Origin: a virus
DNA length: 22,150 nt
Virus record (IMG/VR): IMGVR_UViG_3300020152_000058
Location: 1-22,150 of that record
Direction: 5' to 3' (one strand)
Under the pieces are notes generated by a model. It ran no database searches. It was not told the origin of the DNA and worked only from the letters and a program-made list of their open reading frames with translations. The position numbers were made by a program, and so were the translations under genes. Below, piece by piece: positions 3,015 to 21,341 of this stretch (the first letter of the stretch is position 1; the number at the start of each line of letters is the position of its first letter).

Positions 3015-3127
3015 TTTGCTTTTCCTACCTTCAGTTTGCAGCGTTCATCGTCGGCCAGATCCTCGTTGGCGTGGCCTTGCACGTCATTGAGAAGGTTCGC
3101 GCGGACCGCCGGAAGGCAGGTCAATGA
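3011..3127 (+). CDS. Single-pass small membrane protein, 38 aa
   Basis: Starts with ATGA overlapping the stop of the regulator before it. Residues about 5-24 form one hydrophobic segment (LQFAAFIVGQILVGVALHV) followed by a basic cytoplasmic-type tail (EKVRADRRKAGQ). The core VGVALHVIEK resembles AGIAMHVCKK in the membrane protein encoded on the opposite strand at 3084-3428, whose 3' end overlaps this gene by 44 bases. Function unknown; an inner-membrane superinfection or lysis-related role is possible but unsupported. Confidence 0.5.
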   Translation: MICFSYLQFAAFIVGQILVGVALHVIEKVRADRRKAGQ

Positions 3128-3428
3128 TGCGCTTCAGTGACAAGAGCGCTTGCATGATGGCGCTAAAGACGATTGTCGTTGCCGTGGCCATCGACAGGAC
3201 CATGGCAAATATCAGATCGATCTTCGCAAGCGGATCGTCTCGCCACAGCAAAACAGTCGAGAAGGCGGCCATCATCGCCAAGCACAGCCATGGCGCACCT
3301 TTGTACGCAAGCCGGCTCATCAATTGCGACCGGTTGGGCCAATGCTCATCAATCAGCTTTTTGCAAACGTGCATCGCGATTCCAGCGACGAATAGCCCTG
3401 CCGCAGCGAGCACAGATTCCGTATTCAA
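3084..3428 (-). CDS. Multi-pass small membrane protein on the opposite strand, 114 aa
   Basis: Leftward gene in an otherwise rightward region. TTG at 3428 is the best start because GGAGG lies eight bases upstream; a longer frame to ATG 3470 or 3596 adds proline/arginine-rich sequence with no ribosome site. Three hydrophobic segments are visible: about residues 5-20 (VLAAAGLFVAGIAMHV), 45-62 (LCLAMMAAFSTVLLW) and 68-95 (LIFAMVLSMATATTIVFSAI). The rightward frame across this stretch reads like antisense. The first segment with its charged end resembles the 38-aa protein of 3011-3127, suggesting two related membrane proteins facing each other. Its opposite orientation suggests it is expressed separately from the early genes, perhaps in the lysogen. 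Confidence 0.6.
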   Translation of the reverse strand: MNTESVLAAAGLFVAGIAMHVCKKLIDEHWPNRSQLMSRLAYKGAPWLCLAMMAAFSTVLLWRDDPLAKIDLIFAMVLSMATATTIVFSAIMQALLSLKRIIDLPSGGPREPSQ

Positions 3429-8915: not shown

Positions 8916-9187
8916 CGGGCCAGCCCGGCAGACTCCTGACTGCCGAGCAGTCGGTGAGGCTCGCGATGGTGGACAGCATCGAGCGCGAGAAGATGATTGC
9001 GCTCATCGTTGCTGGACTCCAGGACACGGCCAGATTTGGTCACGGCCGTCCTGGTGGCGCCTGTCCGTATGCGTACTACTCGCAGCCGATTCAGCCGGCC
9101 AAGCGCGTACCCACAAACGCCAGCGCCATGACGCCCACGAGGGCGACGCTCCAGGGCTTGAGCGACGCCGGTGGCAGTCGTTTCTGA
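8912..9187 (+). CDS. Hypothetical protein, 91 aa, overlapping the acyltransferase 3' end
   Basis: GTG 8912 overlaps the previous stop (GTGA). The N-terminal half is helical (LLTAEQSVRLAMVDSIEREK, MIALIVAGLQDTARFGHG) and looks like a real protein. The last about 32 residues are antisense to the end of the acyltransferase gene (9091-9187) and look less natural. One explanation is that insertion of the acyltransferase gene replaced the original end of this frame. No family recognised. Confidence 0.45.
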   Translation: MTGQPGRLLTAEQSVRLAMVDSIEREKMIALIVAGLQDTARFGHGRPGGACPYAYYSQPIQPAKRVPTNASAMTPTRATLQGLSDAGGSRF

Positions 9188-10146
9188 TAGCGAGCCCGGA
9201 TCCAGTCTATTGACGGCGTTTCGGCGAGACGGTGCAGGCCATAGGCCAGCAGAATGCTTCCGGTCGCCGCGATCAGAACCGCAGTGACAGCGTGCACCCC
9301 GGCGCTCTCGGCGCGGATCATGAACGTGTACGACAGGTACTCGTGCAGCAGGTATAGCGGGTAGCTGATCGCCCCGAGCCATACAACCGGCTTGGACGCG
9401 AGCGGCCGGAATGATCCGGTAGCACCGACCCACATGATTCCGAGCACGGCGACCGCCCAGAGGACGTGCAGCGTGCCTTCGTCGATGGCGATATCGGCGA
9501 TAGAGAGCGCGGCGATTGCCGGCCACCATCGATGGTCCTCTAGCTTGTTGACGGCAACGTAGACGGCGATCCCGAGCCCGAACCAGGGAATGAAGCTGAG
9601 CAGGCCGAGCTGAGTAACGACCCAGGGAGTTGGCAGAAACTTCGACGCGACGCTCACGAGCAGCCAGGCGCCCAGCACGAGGAACGGCCGGCGCAGCAGG
9701 CCCAAGGTCCACGCAAGAAACATCAGGACGTAGAAGATCAGCTCGACCTTGAGGCTCCAGTAGGCGCCGTTGACGGACTCGACGCGGAACAGTTCGTGGA
9801 ACATCGCGAAGTTCCACAGGACCTGTTTCAGGCTGACCTCGTGGCCCTTGAGAGGCACGAGCGCCAGGATCAGAGCTGTGAGGAGCATCGCGCACCAGTA
9901 CGTCGGATACAGCCGGCTGAACCGGCCGACGACGAAATCGAGCGGCGCCTTGAGATTTCGGAGCGTCAACAAGATCACGAAGCCGCTGATGGCGAAAAAC
10001 AGCTGCACGCCCAGGCCCCCGAAAGGAAGGCTGATCGGCAGTTCGCTGGTATGGCCATAGAGCTGGTCGTAACGCGTCGTGAGGTGAAAGGACATCACGA
10101 GCAGTGCGGCAATGCCGCGCAGTCCATCGATCTGCGTTATTCGCAT
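9091..10146 (-). CDS. Acyltransferase family 3 membrane protein (O-antigen/envelope acylation), 351 aa
   Basis: Signature of the acyltransferase-3 (OafA/YrhL) family: DGLRGIAALLVMSFH at residues 7-21 with the key histidine H21, GGLGVQLFFAISGFVIL at 43-59, and GRFSRLYPTYW at 74-84. About ten hydrophobic segments run through the protein, as expected for an inner-membrane enzyme passing acyl (usually acetyl) groups to surface polysaccharide. The length of 351 aa fits the membrane domain alone, without the SGNH domain of larger members. It is leftward inside a rightward late block, with AAGGA upstream of ATG 10146, and so is likely a moron expressed in the lysogen that changes O-antigen and blocks superinfection. 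Confidence 0.9.
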   Translation of the reverse strand: MRITQIDGLRGIAALLVMSFHLTTRYDQLYGHTSELPISLPFGGLGVQLFFAISGFVILLTLRNLKAPLDFVVGRFSRLYPTYWCAMLLTALILALVPLKGHEVSLKQVLWNFAMFHELFRVESVNGAYWSLKVELIFYVLMFLAWTLGLLRRPFLVLGAWLLVSVASKFLPTPWVVTQLGLLSFIPWFGLGIAVYVAVNKLEDHRWWPAIAALSIADIAIDEGTLHVLWAVAVLGIMWVGATGSFRPLASKPVVWLGAISYPLYLLHEYLSYTFMIRAESAGVHAVTAVLIAATGSILLAYGLHRLAETPSIDWIRARYQKRLPPASLKPWSVALVGVMALAFVGTRLAG

Positions 10147-15272: not shown

Positions 15273-16868
15273 ATGACGCAATTGCTTGACGACATCCTCG
15301 GCCGGCTGAATTCGCTGCCGGCTAAGGAGCGTCAACAAGTCACACAGGATGCATTGGATGCAACCAAGGACCTGCGATGGATTCCTAATCCGGGTCCACA
15401 GACCGATGCCTACTTCAGCGAGGCTGACGTGCTGCTGTTTGGCGGTGAGCCGGGCGGCGGCAAGAGCCAACTTGTGCTTGGGCTCGCGTTCAACTGCCAT
15501 GAGCGCGCACTCATCATGCGCCGGCAGTACACGGACTTGGATGCGCTCACGGAGGAGGCCATCAAGATCAACGGCGGCCGTGATGGATTCAACGGCTCGC
15601 CGCCGCCGAGTCTCAAGCATCCGAAGGGCCGAATCGATTTTGGCGCTGCCGCTCGCCCCGGTGACGAGCAGCACTGGATGGGGCGTCCGCACGATTTGAT
15701 TGCGTTCGACGAGGCGACGCAGTTCTCAGCCAAGCAGATTCGATTTCTTCGTGGCTGGCTGCGCACAACGACTCCCGGCCAGCGAACTCGGACGATCCTC
15801 GCGACGAACCCGCCACTTTCGGCCGAGGGGCTGTGGGTGTTCGAGATGTTCGCGCCTTGGCTGAACCCGCAGCATCCGAATCCGGCCAAGCCGGGCGAGC
15901 TGCGATGGTTCGTTGTGGATGAGCACGACAAGGACATCGAGGTCGACGGGCCGGGTACGCATGTCGTCAACGGCAAGGCGTACGAGGCTGAGTCGCGAAC
16001 GTTCATTCCGTCGAAGATGACGGACAACCCGCAACTGGATCACAAGGACTATCAGAAGCGCCTCGACGCGCTGCCTGCCGAGATCCGCGAGATTCTGATG
16101 GGCGGATTCCGTGCTTCGTTCAAGGATCAGGAGCGGCAGGTCATCCCGACCGCCTGGGTCAAGGCTGCTCAGGACCGGTGGACGACGAAGCCGCAGCACA
16201 ACGTTCCCATGTGCGCGATGGGCGTCGATGCGTCTGGAGGGGGCAACGATCCGATGGTGATCGCGTCTCGTTATGACGGCTGGTATGCACCGATCGTTAG
16301 AGTCGAGGGCAAGGACATTCCTGTCGAGCGGATCGGCAAGCATTGCGCCGGTATCGTGGTTTCACACCGGCTGCACAACGCAAAGGTCATCGTCGATATG
16401 GGTGGCGGCTATGGCGGCCCGCTCTACGAACAGCTGATTGAGAACATCGGCGGCGAAAGCGTCGCAGGCTACAAGGGCGCCGAAGCTTCGACGCGCAGGA
16501 CAAAGGACCAAAAGCTCGGCTTCTGGAACAAACGAAGCCAAGCCCTCTGGCAATTCCGTGAGGCGCTCGATCCCTCGCAGGAAGGCGGCAGTCCGATTGC
16601 GCTCCCGCCGAGCAACACGCTGCTCGCGGATCTGACTGCGCCGACGTTCGAGGTGACTCCTCGCGGCATCCGTGTGGAGTCGAAGGAAGACGTGACTGAG
16701 CGCCTTGGTCGCTCGACCGACGAAGGCGATGCGGTCGTGATGGCCTGGTACGACGGCGCTCGAGCAATGACACACGCAGGCATCTGGACGAAAGAGATGG
16801 GGCGGGCTGGCCGCACCCCGAGTGTGAGCTACGGCCCGAGGCGGCCCAAGGGCATGAGGAGACATTGA
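15273..16868 (+). CDS. terL: Terminase large subunit, 531 aa
   Basis: An ATP-powered packaging motor and nuclease. Walker A is seen as GGEPGGGKS (57-65), Walker B as DLIAFDE (141-147), and the coupling motif as LATNPP (176-181). The C-terminal RNase H-like nuclease domain begins near residue 314 (MGVDASGGG with D319) and continues with VIVDMGGG (D375) and STDEGDAVVMAWY (D486), the three likely metal-binding acids. The length of 531 aa is normal. It starts two codons after the structural gene's stop and ends as TGATG with the next gene. Cuts the concatemer and translocates DNA into the prohead through the portal. Confidence 0.93.
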   Translation: MTQLLDDILGRLNSLPAKERQQVTQDALDATKDLRWIPNPGPQTDAYFSEADVLLFGGEPGGGKSQLVLGLAFNCHERALIMRRQYTDLDALTEEAIKINGGRDGFNGSPPPSLKHPKGRIDFGAAARPGDEQHWMGRPHDLIAFDEATQFSAKQIRFLRGWLRTTTPGQRTRTILATNPPLSAEGLWVFEMFAPWLNPQHPNPAKPGELRWFVVDEHDKDIEVDGPGTHVVNGKAYEAESRTFIPSKMTDNPQLDHKDYQKRLDALPAEIREILMGGFRASFKDQERQVIPTAWVKAAQDRWTTKPQHNVPMCAMGVDASGGGNDPMVIASRYDGWYAPIVRVEGKDIPVERIGKHCAGIVVSHRLHNAKVIVDMGGGYGGPLYEQLIENIGGESVAGYKGAEASTRRTKDQKLGFWNKRSQALWQFREALDPSQEGGSPIALPPSNTLLADLTAPTFEVTPRGIRVESKEDVTERLGRSTDEGDAVVMAWYDGARAMTHAGIWTKEMGRAGRTPSVSYGPRRPKGMRRH

Positions 16869-17134
16869 TGGGTGGTCTGCATAAGTCGATCAAGAAAGTG
16901 ATTCCAAAGGAGATGCGCTCCCCGCTCGACAAGAAGATCGGCGAGGAGAACATCAAGACGCATGAGAGCCTGAATCGTCGGATGAATCCGGAGCTTCCCG
17001 AAGAAGAGGCGCCGATCCCGATGGCGGACGAGGAAGAGATCAAGCGCAACAAGCGCCGCGGTCAGTCGGCTCGCGGCGGCGGCCGGGCATCGACGATCCT
17101 CACGGGCGGCGATCAGGAAGCCCTCGGCGGATGA
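16868..17134 (+). CDS. Small connector-associated phage protein, 88 aa
   Basis: ATG 16868 shares a base with the terminase stop. The protein is highly charged (SIKKVIPKEMRSPLDKKIGE, then PELPEEEAPIPMADEEEIKR) with a C-terminal motif RGGGRASTILTGG that I recall from short proteins encoded between terminase and portal in podophages. The stop overlaps the portal start (ATGA 17131-17134). Probably virion- or assembly-related; mechanism unknown. Confidence 0.6.
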   Translation: MGGLHKSIKKVIPKEMRSPLDKKIGEENIKTHESLNRRMNPELPEEEAPIPMADEEEIKRNKRRGQSARGGGRASTILTGGDQEALGG

Positions 17135-18756
17135 TCGACATCAAGAAGCTGGTGGCCCAGGGCGATCAGCTTTTTTCAAGCCGCGGTACGCTGATGATGC
17201 TGTGGCAGGAGATCGCCGAGAACTTCTATCCGGAGCGCGCGGACTTCACCGTCAAGCGCGAGATCGGCGACGACTATGCCGGCAATCTGACGACCAGCTA
17301 TCCTTTGCTCGTGCGTCGTGAGCTCGGCGACTCCATCTCGTCGATGCTTCGGCCACGTGGTCAGGAGTGGTTTGCGATCTCCATCGAGGACGAGACTGGC
17401 TTGGACAACTCCGGCCGTCAGTGGCTGGAATGGGCGACCGGCGTCCAGAAGCGCGCGATGTACGACCGCATGTCGCAGTTCGTGCGCGCCACCAAAGAGG
17501 GTGATCACGATTTCGCTGCCTTCGGCCAGCCGGTGATTTCCGTCGAGATCGATTGGTCGACCACGAGCCTGCTCTATCGCAACTGGCACCTTCGCGACGT
17601 TGCATGGTGCGAGCGATACAACGGCATGATCGGCGACATCCACCGGAACTGGTGCCCGGATGTTCGAACGCTGGCAAAGATCTTCGGCAAGGACAAGCTG
17701 CACGCCAACGTCACCAAACTCGTCGACAAAGAGCCCTACCGCAAGATCAAGTGCCGGCACATCGTGTTGCCGACCGAGCAGTACGACGGCGACCAGCGCT
17801 ATCGCACGCCGTACGTGTCGATCTACGTCGACCTGGAGAACAACCACCTGATCAGCGAGGTTGCTTCTTGGTCGCAGATCTATTGCATCCCCCGGTGGCA
17901 GACGGTGTCGGGCTCGCAGTACGCGTATTCGCCGGCCGCGGTTGCCGGCCTGCCTGATGCGCGGCTGTTGCAGGCCATGACGCTGACGTTGCTTGAGGCC
18001 GGTGAAATGGCGGTGCGCCCGCCGATGATCGCGACCAAGGAAGCAATCCGCGGTGACGTTGCGCTGTATGCCGGCGGTATCACGTGGGCTGATGCGCAAT
18101 ATGACGAGCGGCTTGGTGAGGTGTTGCGCCCGCTCAATCAGGACAAATCCGGTCTGCCGTTTGGCCTGGAGGTCAGCGAAGAGAAGAAGCAGATGCTGGC
18201 GCAGGCGTTCTACCTCAACAAGCTGAGCCTGCCGCCCGCCGGCGAAGGTGAGATGACGGCGTACGAGACGAGCCAGCGGATTCAGGAATACATCCGCAAT
18301 GCGCTGCCGCTCTTTGAGCCCATGGAGGTCGAGTACAACGGCGCGCTGTGCGAGATGACCTTCGATGCGTTGATGCGCGTTGGCGCCTTCGGCCCGATGG
18401 ATGAGTTTCCGCAGTCACTGCGCGGCGAGAATGTGCGCTTCAAGTTCGAATCGCCGCTTCATCAGGCGATCGAGCGCCAGAAGGGTCAGAAGTTCATCGA
18501 GGCGAAAGGTCTACTACGTGAGGCCGCAGAGCTCGACGGTTCGGCGACGGCTGTCGTCGACGCTCGACTGGCATTGCGTGAGGCGCTATCTGGCATCGGT
18601 GTGCCGGCCAAGTGGATGCGCTCCGAGGATGACGTTGAGGCATACGCCCAGCAGCAGGCTCAGCAGCAGAAGGCGCAGGAAGCGTTGGCGCTGGCGCAGC
18701 AGGGCGCGGACGTGGCGAAGACGGCGAGCGAGGCGAACATGGATGAGGCGGCATGA
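17131..18756 (+). CDS. Portal (head-to-tail connector) protein, 541 aa
   Basis: Length and pattern are those of the podovirus head-tail connector family: LWQEIAENFYPERADFTV near residue 25, later TSYPLLVRRELGDSISSMLR, then QEWFAISIEDE, and in the C-terminal half the wing/stem region (AYETSQRIQEYIRNALPLFE) with a Gln/Ala-rich tail (AYAQQQAQQQKAQEALALAQ). It forms the dodecameric ring at the portal vertex through which DNA is packaged. It overlaps both neighbours by ATGA, so expression is coupled with the small protein before it and the Bbp19-like gene after it. Confidence 0.88.
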   Translation: MIDIKKLVAQGDQLFSSRGTLMMLWQEIAENFYPERADFTVKREIGDDYAGNLTTSYPLLVRRELGDSISSMLRPRGQEWFAISIEDETGLDNSGRQWLEWATGVQKRAMYDRMSQFVRATKEGDHDFAAFGQPVISVEIDWSTTSLLYRNWHLRDVAWCERYNGMIGDIHRNWCPDVRTLAKIFGKDKLHANVTKLVDKEPYRKIKCRHIVLPTEQYDGDQRYRTPYVSIYVDLENNHLISEVASWSQIYCIPRWQTVSGSQYAYSPAAVAGLPDARLLQAMTLTLLEAGEMAVRPPMIATKEAIRGDVALYAGGITWADAQYDERLGEVLRPLNQDKSGLPFGLEVSEEKKQMLAQAFYLNKLSLPPAGEGEMTAYETSQRIQEYIRNALPLFEPMEVEYNGALCEMTFDALMRVGAFGPMDEFPQSLRGENVRFKFESPLHQAIERQKGQKFIEAKGLLREAAELDGSATAVVDARLALREALSGIGVPAKWMRSEDDVEAYAQQQAQQQKAQEALALAQQGADVAKTASEANMDEAA

Positions 18757-19052
18757 GCAAGGCAAAGCTACCAGATGCAAATCCCGTTCGGCCCGCTGAT
18801 TGGGAAGTTGCCGATGCGGCGGCTATCCAGGCGCTTGCCCGTGGAGATGCATCTCCGGATCAACAGCGCCGCGCGCTCGATTTCATCATGTATGAGATCG
18901 CAGGAACTCGCGACCTCAGCTTTCGTCTTGGCGGTGAGGATGGCCGAAGAGCGACAGACTTCGCAGATGGCAAGCGCTTTGTCGGCTTGCAGATTGCCAA
19001 GCTTAGAACCGTAAATCTCGCTGCCATCCGGCAGGCGAAAGAGCAGAAGTAA
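18753..19052 (+). CDS. Bbp19-like phage protein, 99 aa
   Basis: ATGA overlap with the portal stop. The core (ADAAAIQALARGDASPDQQR, RALDFIMYEIAGTRDLSFR, GEDGRRATDFADGKRFVGLQ, IAKL) matches what I recall of the small Bbp19-type protein of Bordetella phage BPP-1-like viruses, found next to portal genes. Helical, soluble. Function unknown, probably head or connector assembly. It ends eight bases before the tRNA-like element. Confidence 0.65.
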   Translation: MSKAKLPDANPVRPADWEVADAAAIQALARGDASPDQQRRALDFIMYEIAGTRDLSFRLGGEDGRRATDFADGKRFVGLQIAKLRTVNLAAIRQAKEQK

Positions 19053-19059
19053 TCCCAAT

Positions 19060-19128
19060 GCCGATTGGTAGCTCAGCCTGGTAGAGCGCTCGACGGAGAG
19101 GTCGCCGGTTCAAATCCGGCCCAACGGC
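19060..19128 (+). ncRNA. tRNA-like element lacking an anticodon loop
   Basis: Canonical parts: positions 8-9 as TA (19069-19070), D stem GCTC/GAGC (19071-19074 and 19084-19087) with loop AGCCTGGTA holding the conserved GG, variable loop AGGTC (19099-19103), T stem GCCGG/CCGGC (19104-19108 and 19116-19120) and T loop TTCAAAT. The acceptor stem is eight base pairs, GCCG+TTGG against CCAACGGC, with one bulged A (19064), against seven in normal tRNA. Between base 26 (19088) and the variable loop only ten bases remain (CTCGACGGAG) instead of 17: a 3-bp stem CTC/GAG with GACG loop. No anticodon exists, so it cannot decode. No CCA is encoded. It lies between the Bbp19-like and scaffold genes. Confidence 0.8.
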
Positions 19129-19154
19129 AAACCCATCAACACTGGAGACAGGCA

Positions 19155-20129
19155 ATGCCCGACCCGAATCCGAATCCAAACCCGACGCCAGATCCGAGCG
19201 CGAATCCGAATCCCGGCAATCCGAATCCCGCGCCGGCCACTTGGTACAGCGGTATCGACTTCGGCGACGCAAAGGACACCGCGTCGAAGGCGCTGGAGGT
19301 CTACAAGACCCCGGCCGATCTTCTTGGCGCGCTTGACTGGCGCAAGCAAATATCGGGCGGCGACGAAAAGACGCTGAAGGCATTCGAGCGATTCAGCACC
19401 ATCGGCGACGTGGGCAAATCGTTCCTGGAGGCGCAGGCCAAGATCCGCTCCGGCGAGCTCGCCAAGCCGCTGCCAAAGGACGCGACGGCCGAGCAGGTAG
19501 CCGAATGGCGCAAGGGCAACGGTATCCCGGAGAAGCCCGAGGATTACTTCAACGGCCTGCCGAACGGCCTGGTCATTGGCGCCGACGACAAACCGATGTT
19601 CGATGCCGTCGCGACCAAGCTGCACGAGCTGAATGCCAAGCCGGAAGTCATCCATGCGCTGGCCGACTGGTATTACGGCATGCAGGACGAGCAGGTCGAG
19701 GCGCAGAAGGTCGCCGACACTGAGGGCAAGACGAAGCTGACCGGCGCGCTCAAGACTGCCTGGGGCAACGACTTCGCGGCGAACAGCAATGTTTACGCCA
19801 GCTACATCGCATCGGCCCCGAAGGAAGTGCAGGAGTTCCTGACGCAGGCTCGTGGGCCGGATGGAAGTTTCCTGCTCTACAACCCGGCGATCGTTTCCTG
19901 GCTCACAGCTCAGGCGCGCGAGATCAATCCGGCAGGGCATATCGTGCCGAGCGCTGGCGCTGACGGTGGATTGCAGTCGATCACTACCGAGATCGCAACG
20001 CTCAAGGGGCTGATGGCCAACGAGTCGTCCGAATACTGGAAGGGCCCGAAGGCCGAGGCCAACCAGGCGCGATATCGCCAGTTGGTGGAAGCACAGGCGC
20101 GATTGCAGGAGCGCGGCAGGGCGGCCTGA
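19155..20129 (+). CDS. Scaffold-like protein, 324 aa
   Basis: Start at ATG 19155 behind GGAGACAGG. An in-frame start at 19065 would translate through the tRNA-like element and is rejected. The N-terminus is a Pro/Asn repeat (DPNPNPNPTPDPSANPNP, about 2-30). The rest is helical, charged and cysteine-free (ALDWRKQISGGDEKTLKAFE, AEWRKGNGIPEKPEDYFNG, ATLKGLMANESSEYWKGPKA), with the C-terminal basic helix (RYRQLVEAQARLQERGR) typical of scaffolds that bind coat. Its place directly before the coat gene (with the antitoxin between) supports the call. Catalytic protease residues are not seen. Confidence 0.75.
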   Translation: MPDPNPNPNPTPDPSANPNPGNPNPAPATWYSGIDFGDAKDTASKALEVYKTPADLLGALDWRKQISGGDEKTLKAFERFSTIGDVGKSFLEAQAKIRSGELAKPLPKDATAEQVAEWRKGNGIPEKPEDYFNGLPNGLVIGADDKPMFDAVATKLHELNAKPEVIHALADWYYGMQDEQVEAQKVADTEGKTKLTGALKTAWGNDFAANSNVYASYIASAPKEVQEFLTQARGPDGSFLLYNPAIVSWLTAQAREINPAGHIVPSAGADGGLQSITTEIATLKGLMANESSEYWKGPKAEANQARYRQLVEAQARLQERGRAA

Positions 20130-20332
20130 TGCGCGTCAAGGTTGAATCGTTGCGTGCGGAGCTTGCAGATGTTCTCCGGGGCGTCGCGCAGCAACCGGTG
20201 ACGGTCACTCGCTATGGGGAGGCCGTCGCCGTGATCGTTTCACCACAGGACTTCGCAGAGCTGACTCGGCTGCGAGGTCTGTACAGGAAACGTTCCGTCG
20301 AAAGGAGAAACGTACTAGCTTCATGTGCGTGA
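20129..20332 (+). CDS. Phd/YefM-type antitoxin, 67 aa, without a toxin
   Basis: ATG 20129 shares a base with the scaffold stop (TGATG). The sequence VESLRAELADVLRGVAQQPV, then VTRYGEAVAVIVSPQDFAEL has the Phd/YefM layout: N-terminal dimer/DNA-binding domain with the xTRxGxxVAVIVSxxxFxxL motif. Phd-type antitoxins are commonly about 70-85 aa; the C-terminal toxin-binding part here (LRGLYRKRSVERRNVLASCA) is short. No toxin gene lies within reach: the next frame is the coat gene. A standalone antitoxin could neutralise a host toxin during infection, or regulate transcription; both are inference. Confidence 0.75.
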   Translation: MRVKVESLRAELADVLRGVAQQPVTVTRYGEAVAVIVSPQDFAELTRLRGLYRKRSVERRNVLASCA

Positions 20333-20495
20333 TCGGCTAACCCGAAAGGCCCCGGTCACTGAATGTCTCTTTTGCTGTAGCAAGGCCCCGCCCTTGTCGA
20401 TCGCAGGCCCGGCGCAACGCCGCTAACCCTGCGCAGACTTTTCAGCGGCCAACCCGAGCGAAGGCTTCAAACCCTTTACTTTGGAGTTGGCATCA
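20333..20495. other. Structured non-coding gap before the coat gene
   Basis: No gene is seen in these 163 bases. Two copies of AAGGCCCCG occur at 20346-20354 and 20382-20390. GCCGCT (20419-20424) pairs with AGCGGC (20444-20449) around a T-rich loop, and GGCG-CAA-CGCC (20411-20421) can form a competing hairpin. No classic T-tailed terminator is visible. TTTGGAG lies before ATG 20496. The gap may adjust coat mRNA stability, so that coat is made in excess over upstream proteins (inference). Confidence 0.4.
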
Positions 20496-21341
20496 ATGGC
20501 GGATACCGCATTTCAAGTTCAGTACCGCGATGAGTTCATCGCAAAGTTCGAGCAGCGCCAGTCTCTGCTGCGCAGCTCGGTCACGACCGAAGCGGTCATC
20601 AAGGGCAACCAGGCAACGTTCCTGACCGCTGGCAGCGGTTCGGCAACTGCCGTGACTCGCGGCGTCAATGGCCTCATCCCGGCGCGCGCAGACGATCTCA
20701 CCCAGTCCACGGCGACGCTGGTCGAGTGGCACGATCTGTCGCGAGCCACGAACTTCAACATCTTCGCGAGCCAGGGCAATCGGCGCGCGATCATGCAGAA
20801 CACAACCCAGGCTGTCATCAATCGCAAGATTGATAGCGACATTCTGACCACGCTGGCCACTGGCACTGTCACGACTGGTGCGGCGGTGACGGCAAGCGTG
20901 GGCCTCGTGGCCAAGGCGAAGACGAAGCTCGGCAACGCCGGTGTGCCGTGGGATTCGAACATCACGGCGGTCATCTCGCCGGCCTTCGAAGGCTACCTGA
21001 TGCAGACCAAGGAATTCGCCTCGCGCGAGTACGTTGGTAAGCCGCCTTCGGATGGTGCCGACGCCGCGTGGCGCGATCAGCCTCGTGCGTTCTTCTGGTA
21101 TGGCGTCATGTGGATCGTTCATCCGAACGTCTCTGGCGTGGGGACGGCTTCCGAGTCGTGCTTCATGTACCACAAGTCGGCGATCGGTCACGCGATCAAC
21201 ACTGCCGGGCTGGACTCTCTCGTCGGCTACGACGGCGAACAGAACTACACCTGGGCGCGCTGCTCGGTCGATATGGGATCGGTCCTGCTGCAGAACAGCG
21301 GCGTGGTCGAGATGGTCCATGACGGCTCGGCGCTGGCTTAA
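20496..21341 (+). CDS. Major capsid (coat) protein, 281 aa
   Basis: Start at ATG 20496 with TTTGGAG upstream (a TTG at 20481 is possible). The sequence fits a short HK97-fold-type coat: N-terminal FQVQYRDEFIAKFEQRQSLL, mid RATNFNIFASQGNRRAIMQN, then VINRKIDSDILTTLATGTVT, and C-terminal FFWYGVMWIVHPNVSG, HKSAIGHAINTAGLDS, YTWARCSVDMGSVLLQNSGV. The RKIDSDIL helix and the strand-rich C-terminal domain with a W-I-V-H-P segment are typical of BPP-1-like coats. It comes after the scaffold and before a small head protein, the usual order. Confidence 0.88.
   Translation: MADTAFQVQYRDEFIAKFEQRQSLLRSSVTTEAVIKGNQATFLTAGSGSATAVTRGVNGLIPARADDLTQSTATLVEWHDLSRATNFNIFASQGNRRAIMQNTTQAVINRKIDSDILTTLATGTVTTGAAVTASVGLVAKAKTKLGNAGVPWDSNITAVISPAFEGYLMQTKEFASREYVGKPPSDGADAAWRDQPRAFFWYGVMWIVHPNVSGVGTASESCFMYHKSAIGHAINTAGLDSLVGYDGEQNYTWARCSVDMGSVLLQNSGVVEMVHDGSALA

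Follow-up and report, generated by a model that had tools for sequence, protein, structure and literature searches.

A tRNA-like element without an anticodon loop in the late head operon of an IMG/VR virus, and similar elements in other phages

Introduction

Codon usage, or the replacement of cleaved host tRNAs, is the usual explanation for the tRNA genes of phages. Neither role suits a tRNA body from which the decoding arm is missing, and such a body was found between two head genes of IMG/VR virus record IMGVR_UViG_3300020152_000058, in the stretch of 22,150 nucleotides (positions 1 to 22,150 of the record) that is called the window below. What an element of this kind is doing in a late operon is the question addressed here. 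Non-decoding phage tRNA mimics would need another explanation and would point to a partner among the enzymes that process tRNA or the defences that target it. Phages appear to keep such look-alikes, and their role is probably to attract tRNA-handling enzymes. One is carried by the cultured phage OLIVR1, where the idea is directly testable.

Element structure and detection

The element occupies positions 19059-19129 on the plus strand, as recognized by the Rfam tRNA model (RF00005), by model R1, which was built solely from armless phage elements, and by direct reading. Direct reading and the minimum free energy (MFE) fold agree on the acceptor stem, in which the 5' strand TGCCG(A)TTGG (19059-19068) is paired with the 3' strand CCAACGGCA (19121-19129), the latter being followed by AA. 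Direct reading gives nine pairs (4+5) with A19064 bulged. The original prediction had counted eight pairs and a bulged A, which is correct from 19060 and 19128 inward but leaves out the ninth pair, T19059-A19129. A linker of T19069 and A19070 (direct reading) leads to the D arm, GCTC-AGCCTGGTA-GAGC (19071-19087), with the stem at 19071-19074/19084-19087 and GG present in the loop. The variable region is AGGTC (19099-19103; Rfam alignment), and the T arm, GCCGG-TTCAAAT-CCGGC (19104-19120), consists of five perfect pairs (19104-19108/19116-19120) and a loop (19109-19115) that fits the canonical TTCRANT. Both the D arm and the T arm are supported by the Rfam alignment and the MFE fold. At the 3' end CGGC is followed by AAACCC, with no encoded CCA and no C74.

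Between the D arm and the variable region lie the single base G19088 and the vestigial anticodon arm CTCGACGGAG (19089-19098; direct reading), so that ten bases are indeed all that is left for this arm, as predicted. They can form at most three pairs and a tetraloop (CTC-GACG-GAG) and hold no anticodon loop. In the MFE fold this stub is absent, another local pairing (GAC/GUC) being preferred there. The stub was initially described as an exact loss of seven nucleotides; the arithmetic is right, but it does not point to a special design, since the remnants in similar elements vary in length. The minihairpin was likewise discarded as independent evidence: a 3-bp stub is expected from loop loss and does not appear in the MFE fold.

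Folding without a tRNA model predicted the acceptor, D and T arms together. Since shuffled sequences are only about 1 sd worse in fold energy, the case for the element rests on the tRNA-specific pattern. RF00005 scored 36.3 bits against a cut-off of 29 (E = 2e-4 in the window) and was the only Rfam model to exceed its cut-off on the element. Model R1 gave 39.9 bits (E = 4.9e-13), a score comparable to that of the OLIVR1 element (44.3 bits) and below that of the Vibrio phage K476 element (62.5 bits). Together with the canonical D arm, variable loop and T arm, these scores establish that the tRNA-like sequence is real. Because R1 also matches normal tRNAs, its match indicates a tRNA body and not class membership alone; what places the element in the armless class, defined in this analysis as a tRNA body with no more than 12 nt between the D stem and GGTC, is that the arm and the CCA are missing and the acceptor is lengthened. 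In the window element this distance is 12 nt and the acceptor has nine pairs. Of the features of a canonical tRNA it has the D arm with GG, the 5-bp T arm and the covariance score, and it lacks the 5-bp anticodon stem with 7-nt loop, the 7-bp acceptor and the CCA/C74 end.

ARAGORN reported neither a tRNA nor a tmRNA in the element. Identity with tmRNA was rejected on this result and on the absence of a tag reading frame or long insert, and identity with YrlA (RF02553) on a score of 21.1 bits (cut-off 69).

Genomic setting and lineage history

The predicted location in the head gene cassette was borne out by PHROGs, which identified TerL (15273-16868) and the portal gene (phrog_332; 17131-18756) upstream of the element and the major capsid gene (phrog_3437; 20481-21341) downstream. 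The element lies in a gap of 102 nt between a 99-aa gene (18753-19052, plus strand), conserved in relatives at the same place, and a 324-aa gene (19155-20129, plus strand; phrog_3742). These had been called Bbp19-like and scaffold genes. Their positions stand, but Pfam and PHROGs gave no functional name to either, the 99-aa gene having no match at all in the two collections. The stop codon of the 99-aa gene ends 6 nt 5' of the element, and 25 nt separate the element from the ATG of the 324-aa gene, whose likely ribosome-binding site is GGAGA (19144-19148, plus strand). No promoter or terminator match was found near the element. Given this and the short distances to the stop codon and the ATG, the element is probably part of the late operon mRNA. 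A remnant of an attachment site, also considered originally, appears unlikely for a complete D, T and acceptor body in mid-operon; the ORFs scanned, a part of those on this fragmentary record, yielded no integrase.

Two other genes of the window were recorded. The scaffold-position gene is followed, before the major capsid gene, by a 67-aa ORF (20129-20332, plus strand) with a match to the Phd/YefM antitoxin family (PF02604; 31.2 bits, exceeding the cut-off), and the location is odd for an antitoxin-like gene. At 9091-10146 on the minus strand, amid plus-strand genes, lies a member of the Acyltransferase-3 family (PF01757), a possible surface-modification moron.

A motif search covered 122 relatives, 42 loci from portal relatives and 80 from capsid relatives. 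None (0/122) carries a tRNA-like element, and at the spot where an intact tRNA was looked for the relatives have nothing. Rfam found no tRNA-like element in 14 relatives, and model R1 gave 0 matches at E <= 0.05 in 96 relatives (747 kb). The two closest relatives, L001 (portal 91% identical) and L411, have the same gap and leader, including the GGAGA, without the element: the empty site reads TAATCCCGTCAACACAGGAGAC in L001 and TAGACCCCCATCAATACTGGAGAC in L411, and the window has TAATCCCAA, the element and AACCCATCAACACTGGAGAC. By this comparison of filled and empty sites, the element is new in this lineage, where about 75 nt were inserted cleanly 5' of the scaffold-position gene. CCCA is present on both sides of the insertion (19054-19057 and 19132-19135), a possible target duplication. 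The element is thus a single copy, with no conservation among the 122 relatives.

Armless tRNA-like elements in phages

Scans of IMG/VR yielded about 55 distinct tRNA-like elements in which the anticodon arm is only a linker of 2-7 nt. Of two complete pattern scans, one that required a strict D arm and a linker of 3-13 nt returned 39 stretches; the other, which allowed a loose D arm and a linker of 2-7 nt, returned 116, a set that includes false matches without a D arm. Forms with a short arm (8-13 nt; 12 nt) also occur, at least in the numbers counted among the matches listed. Across the class the linkers range from 2 to 14 nt, the arm often being replaced by CTTG, CTTTG, CATAG, CTTTGG and the like. 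Among the matches listed, OLIVR1 and further unrelated phages also have a 10-nt stub like that of the window element, on bodies that are intact.

Many of the elements lie in loci without an ARAGORN tRNA, commonly with a terminase, portal or endolysin gene nearby. Most are in roomy intergenic regions and some adjoin tRNA genes. A sense start codon with a ribosome site followed within 160 nt in 6/45 cases, against 5/42 in the antisense control, which does not support position in a gene leader as a rule for the class. In 84,980 bacterial and archaeal genomes 19 stretches were matched, many with masked bases; matches with N in the arm are masked sequence and were discarded. Armless elements turned up in a single genome in each of two further sets, 151 genomes from one genus and 201 from one family, and by these scans the class appears close to absent from bacterial genomes. 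A phage BLAST with the family-A and L210 regions gave no match, and a literature search limited to open-licence PMC papers found no description of the class.

Agrobacterium phage OLIVR1 (MT234338) was found by BLAST with the window element. Its element (3068-3139; Rfam 52.3 bits) shares the 10-nt stub (TGTGC GCACA; TGTGCGCACA), the extended acceptor and an intergenic location, and differs in lying in the early gene region and in having a 10-bp acceptor without a bulge. ARAGORN misses many armless elements, which therefore go unannotated even in this cultured phage, whose record does not annotate the element as an RNA. The annotated start codon of OLIVR1 gp10 (L162, position 3135) falls inside the 3' acceptor strand of the element and is either misannotated or masked by the stem. 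The armless pattern was also matched by seven Vibrio phages. The element of K476, likewise an isolate, is 60 nt long, has an encoded ACCA end, lies in a tRNA cluster and is annotated as a tRNA without isotype.

Several unusual arrangements were also noted. Locus L184 (3740-4160, minus strand) holds three units in tandem: an armless element, a tRNA-Ile-like sequence whose D loop is larger by about 50 nt, and a further odd tRNA. Greatly enlarged middle regions occur in phage tRNA-like matches at L489 (1492-1603), L204 (135-259) and L176 (5128-5299), the last two sharing a contig with an armless element; the middle of the tRNA-like body may be able to expand as well as to disappear. In L210 (9559-9824, minus strand) a Pseudomonadales-1 RNA (RF03046, 119.3 bits) is followed about 50 nt on by an armless element. 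Erythrobacter phage ZS04 (L163, 2996-3072) has an unannotated intact tRNA-Met(CAT) between its terminase and portal genes.

Integrity and covariation

Whether armless elements are decayed tRNAs was judged from all elements with a canonical D arm, the acceptor being unfiltered and counted as intact with at least 6 of 7 pairs. Acceptors were intact in 53/56 elements with a 2-7 nt linker and in 77/84 full-size tRNAs from the same loci, so the armless forms are as intact as working tRNAs. With 13-14 nt (16/30) and 15-18 nt (50/73) at the arm position, decay is visible.

In an alignment of 45 armless elements, preselected for at least 6 of 7 acceptor pairs, 89.4% of the cells are paired and 250 double-sided changes were counted, a level reached by 0/500 shuffles. 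As proof of selection this class-wide covariation is weakened, since diverse tRNA ancestors would produce the same and may account for part of it; the argument is therefore carried by the integrity counts and by changes within one family. That family comprises ten homologous contigs with the linker CATAG or AGTTTCTCA and the same lysis gene 30-60 nt downstream. Identity is 85% in the element and 31% in the flank upstream of it, and compensatory changes lead from A-U via G-U to G-C in the acceptor and from A-U to U-A in the T stem.

After deduplication, acceptors of at least 9 bp were found in 10/42 armless elements and 2/70 full tRNAs (p = 0.0009), an encoded CCA in 5/42 and 28/70 (p = 0.0014), and C74 in 25/42 and 68/70. 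Acceptor sequences vary across the class and reach 14 bp. The longer acceptors and fewer CCA ends argue against charging. Judged from these comparisons, the armless class retains the body and is relaxed in the decoding arm and at the charging end.

Interpretation

That the element is kept for something other than decoding, as proposed originally, is plausible in view of the recurrence of intact armless RNAs in many unrelated phages, the compensation within one family and the near absence from bacterial genomes, although this copy may still be a fossil. For the class as a whole there is a reasonable, somewhat better than even case that phages hold widespread, unnamed tRNA-body RNAs, with the arm removed or stubbed and often a longer acceptor, selected to engage tRNA-body-binding machinery such as processing enzymes or defence factors, the window element included.

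For the window element the favoured, tentative reading is a non-decoding mimic of the tRNA body that RNase P and/or RNase Z would recognize in the late mRNA. Among the roles suggested beforehand, cutting by these enzymes fits best because the parts kept are the elbow and the acceptor stack, and the location inside an operon favours it further. In this scheme the acceptor, D and T parts with a 10-nt stub, inserted in the leader of the scaffold-position gene, would be transcribed with the operon. RNase P, RNase Z or both would read the elbow and the stacked acceptor/T helix and cleave the polycistronic transcript there, parting the upstream gene from the scaffold and capsid genes. The cut would alter the relative stability or expression of the flanking genes, with an RNA of about 70 nt as by-product. 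Two other suggested roles fall away: there is no anticodon loop for anticodon-cutting enzymes to be decoyed by, and an aminoacylated mimic is contradicted by the missing CCA and C74 and by the depletion of CCA in the class. Against processing, the bulged A and the stem of more than 7 bp may hinder RNase P, and the absence of C74/CCA removes one of its contacts. The single copy, a class not tied to leaders and a stub no different from the expected remnant of a loop deletion also count against it.

The main rival for this copy, somewhat unlikely yet weighty, is a fossil: a tRNA gene that was inserted, lost its anticodon loop by deletion and is too recent to have decayed. A 5-bp arm that has lost its 7-nt loop amounts to exactly a 10-nt stub, and the element is unique among the relatives, with the site empty in L001 and L411. 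The bulge, the missing CCA and the modest fold energy agree with such an origin, as does the frequent decay of elements with 13-18 nt at the arm position. Yet three arms are nearly perfect and the acceptor has been lengthened, not eroded; the equal stubs with intact bodies among the matches listed, and a class integrity equal to that of working tRNAs, also speak against a fossil. A free RNA, excised and acting in trans by occupying a host protein that binds tRNA bodies, is plausible for many class members and would suit elements that are mostly intergenic, sometimes beside tRNA genes and not tied to a downstream start, as well as the K476 copy with its ACCA in a tRNA cluster. Candidate targets are, for example, a tRNA defence nuclease or nucleotidyltransferase, a tRNA-modifying enzyme, or PNPase as with YrlA, which offers a precedent with modification enzymes and PNPase (PMC8394870); phage tRNAs are reported to counter defence (PMC11555353). 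For the window copy this is doubtful and considerably less likely than processing: no target is known, and the copy sits in a 102-nt operon gap with no promoter or terminator match. Least probable is a static structure, in which the long acceptor helix shields downstream mRNA from decay with no tRNA enzyme involved. Extended acceptors are enriched in the class (10 bp in OLIVR1, up to 14 elsewhere) and the tRNA end signals are relaxed, but a plain hairpin would suffice, and the tRNA letters in the D loop, T loop and variable region are left unexplained.

Comparison with known systems

The window element shares the D arm, T arm, variable region and acceptor stack with canonical phage tRNAs (RF00005), and differs in having no anticodon loop, no CCA and a bulged acceptor of nine pairs. 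tmRNA has a tRNA-like end without an anticodon arm and resembles the element in that absence. The Bacillus cereus pseudo-tRNA tRNA-Other is described as tRNA-like, non-translational and adjoining mobile DNA (PMC3399842); it is chromosomal and flanks a genomic island, unlike the window element. YrlA, a bacterial Y RNA, mimics the D, T and acceptor parts, is a substrate of tRNA-modifying enzymes and binds PNPase (PMC8394870), but has a different architecture with a long Ro-binding stem. mascRNA and menRNA (from MALAT1 and MEN-beta) belong to eukaryotic lncRNAs and have a small D arm and a longer anticodon-equivalent stem (PMC11693755); processing is proven for mascRNA, whereas cleavage of the window element is proposed from its sequence. 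Like the element, they are tRNA-like domains in a long transcript with no conserved anticodon loop, and in mascRNA, which is not aminoacylated, RNase P and RNase Z recognize the elbow without that loop (PMC11693755).
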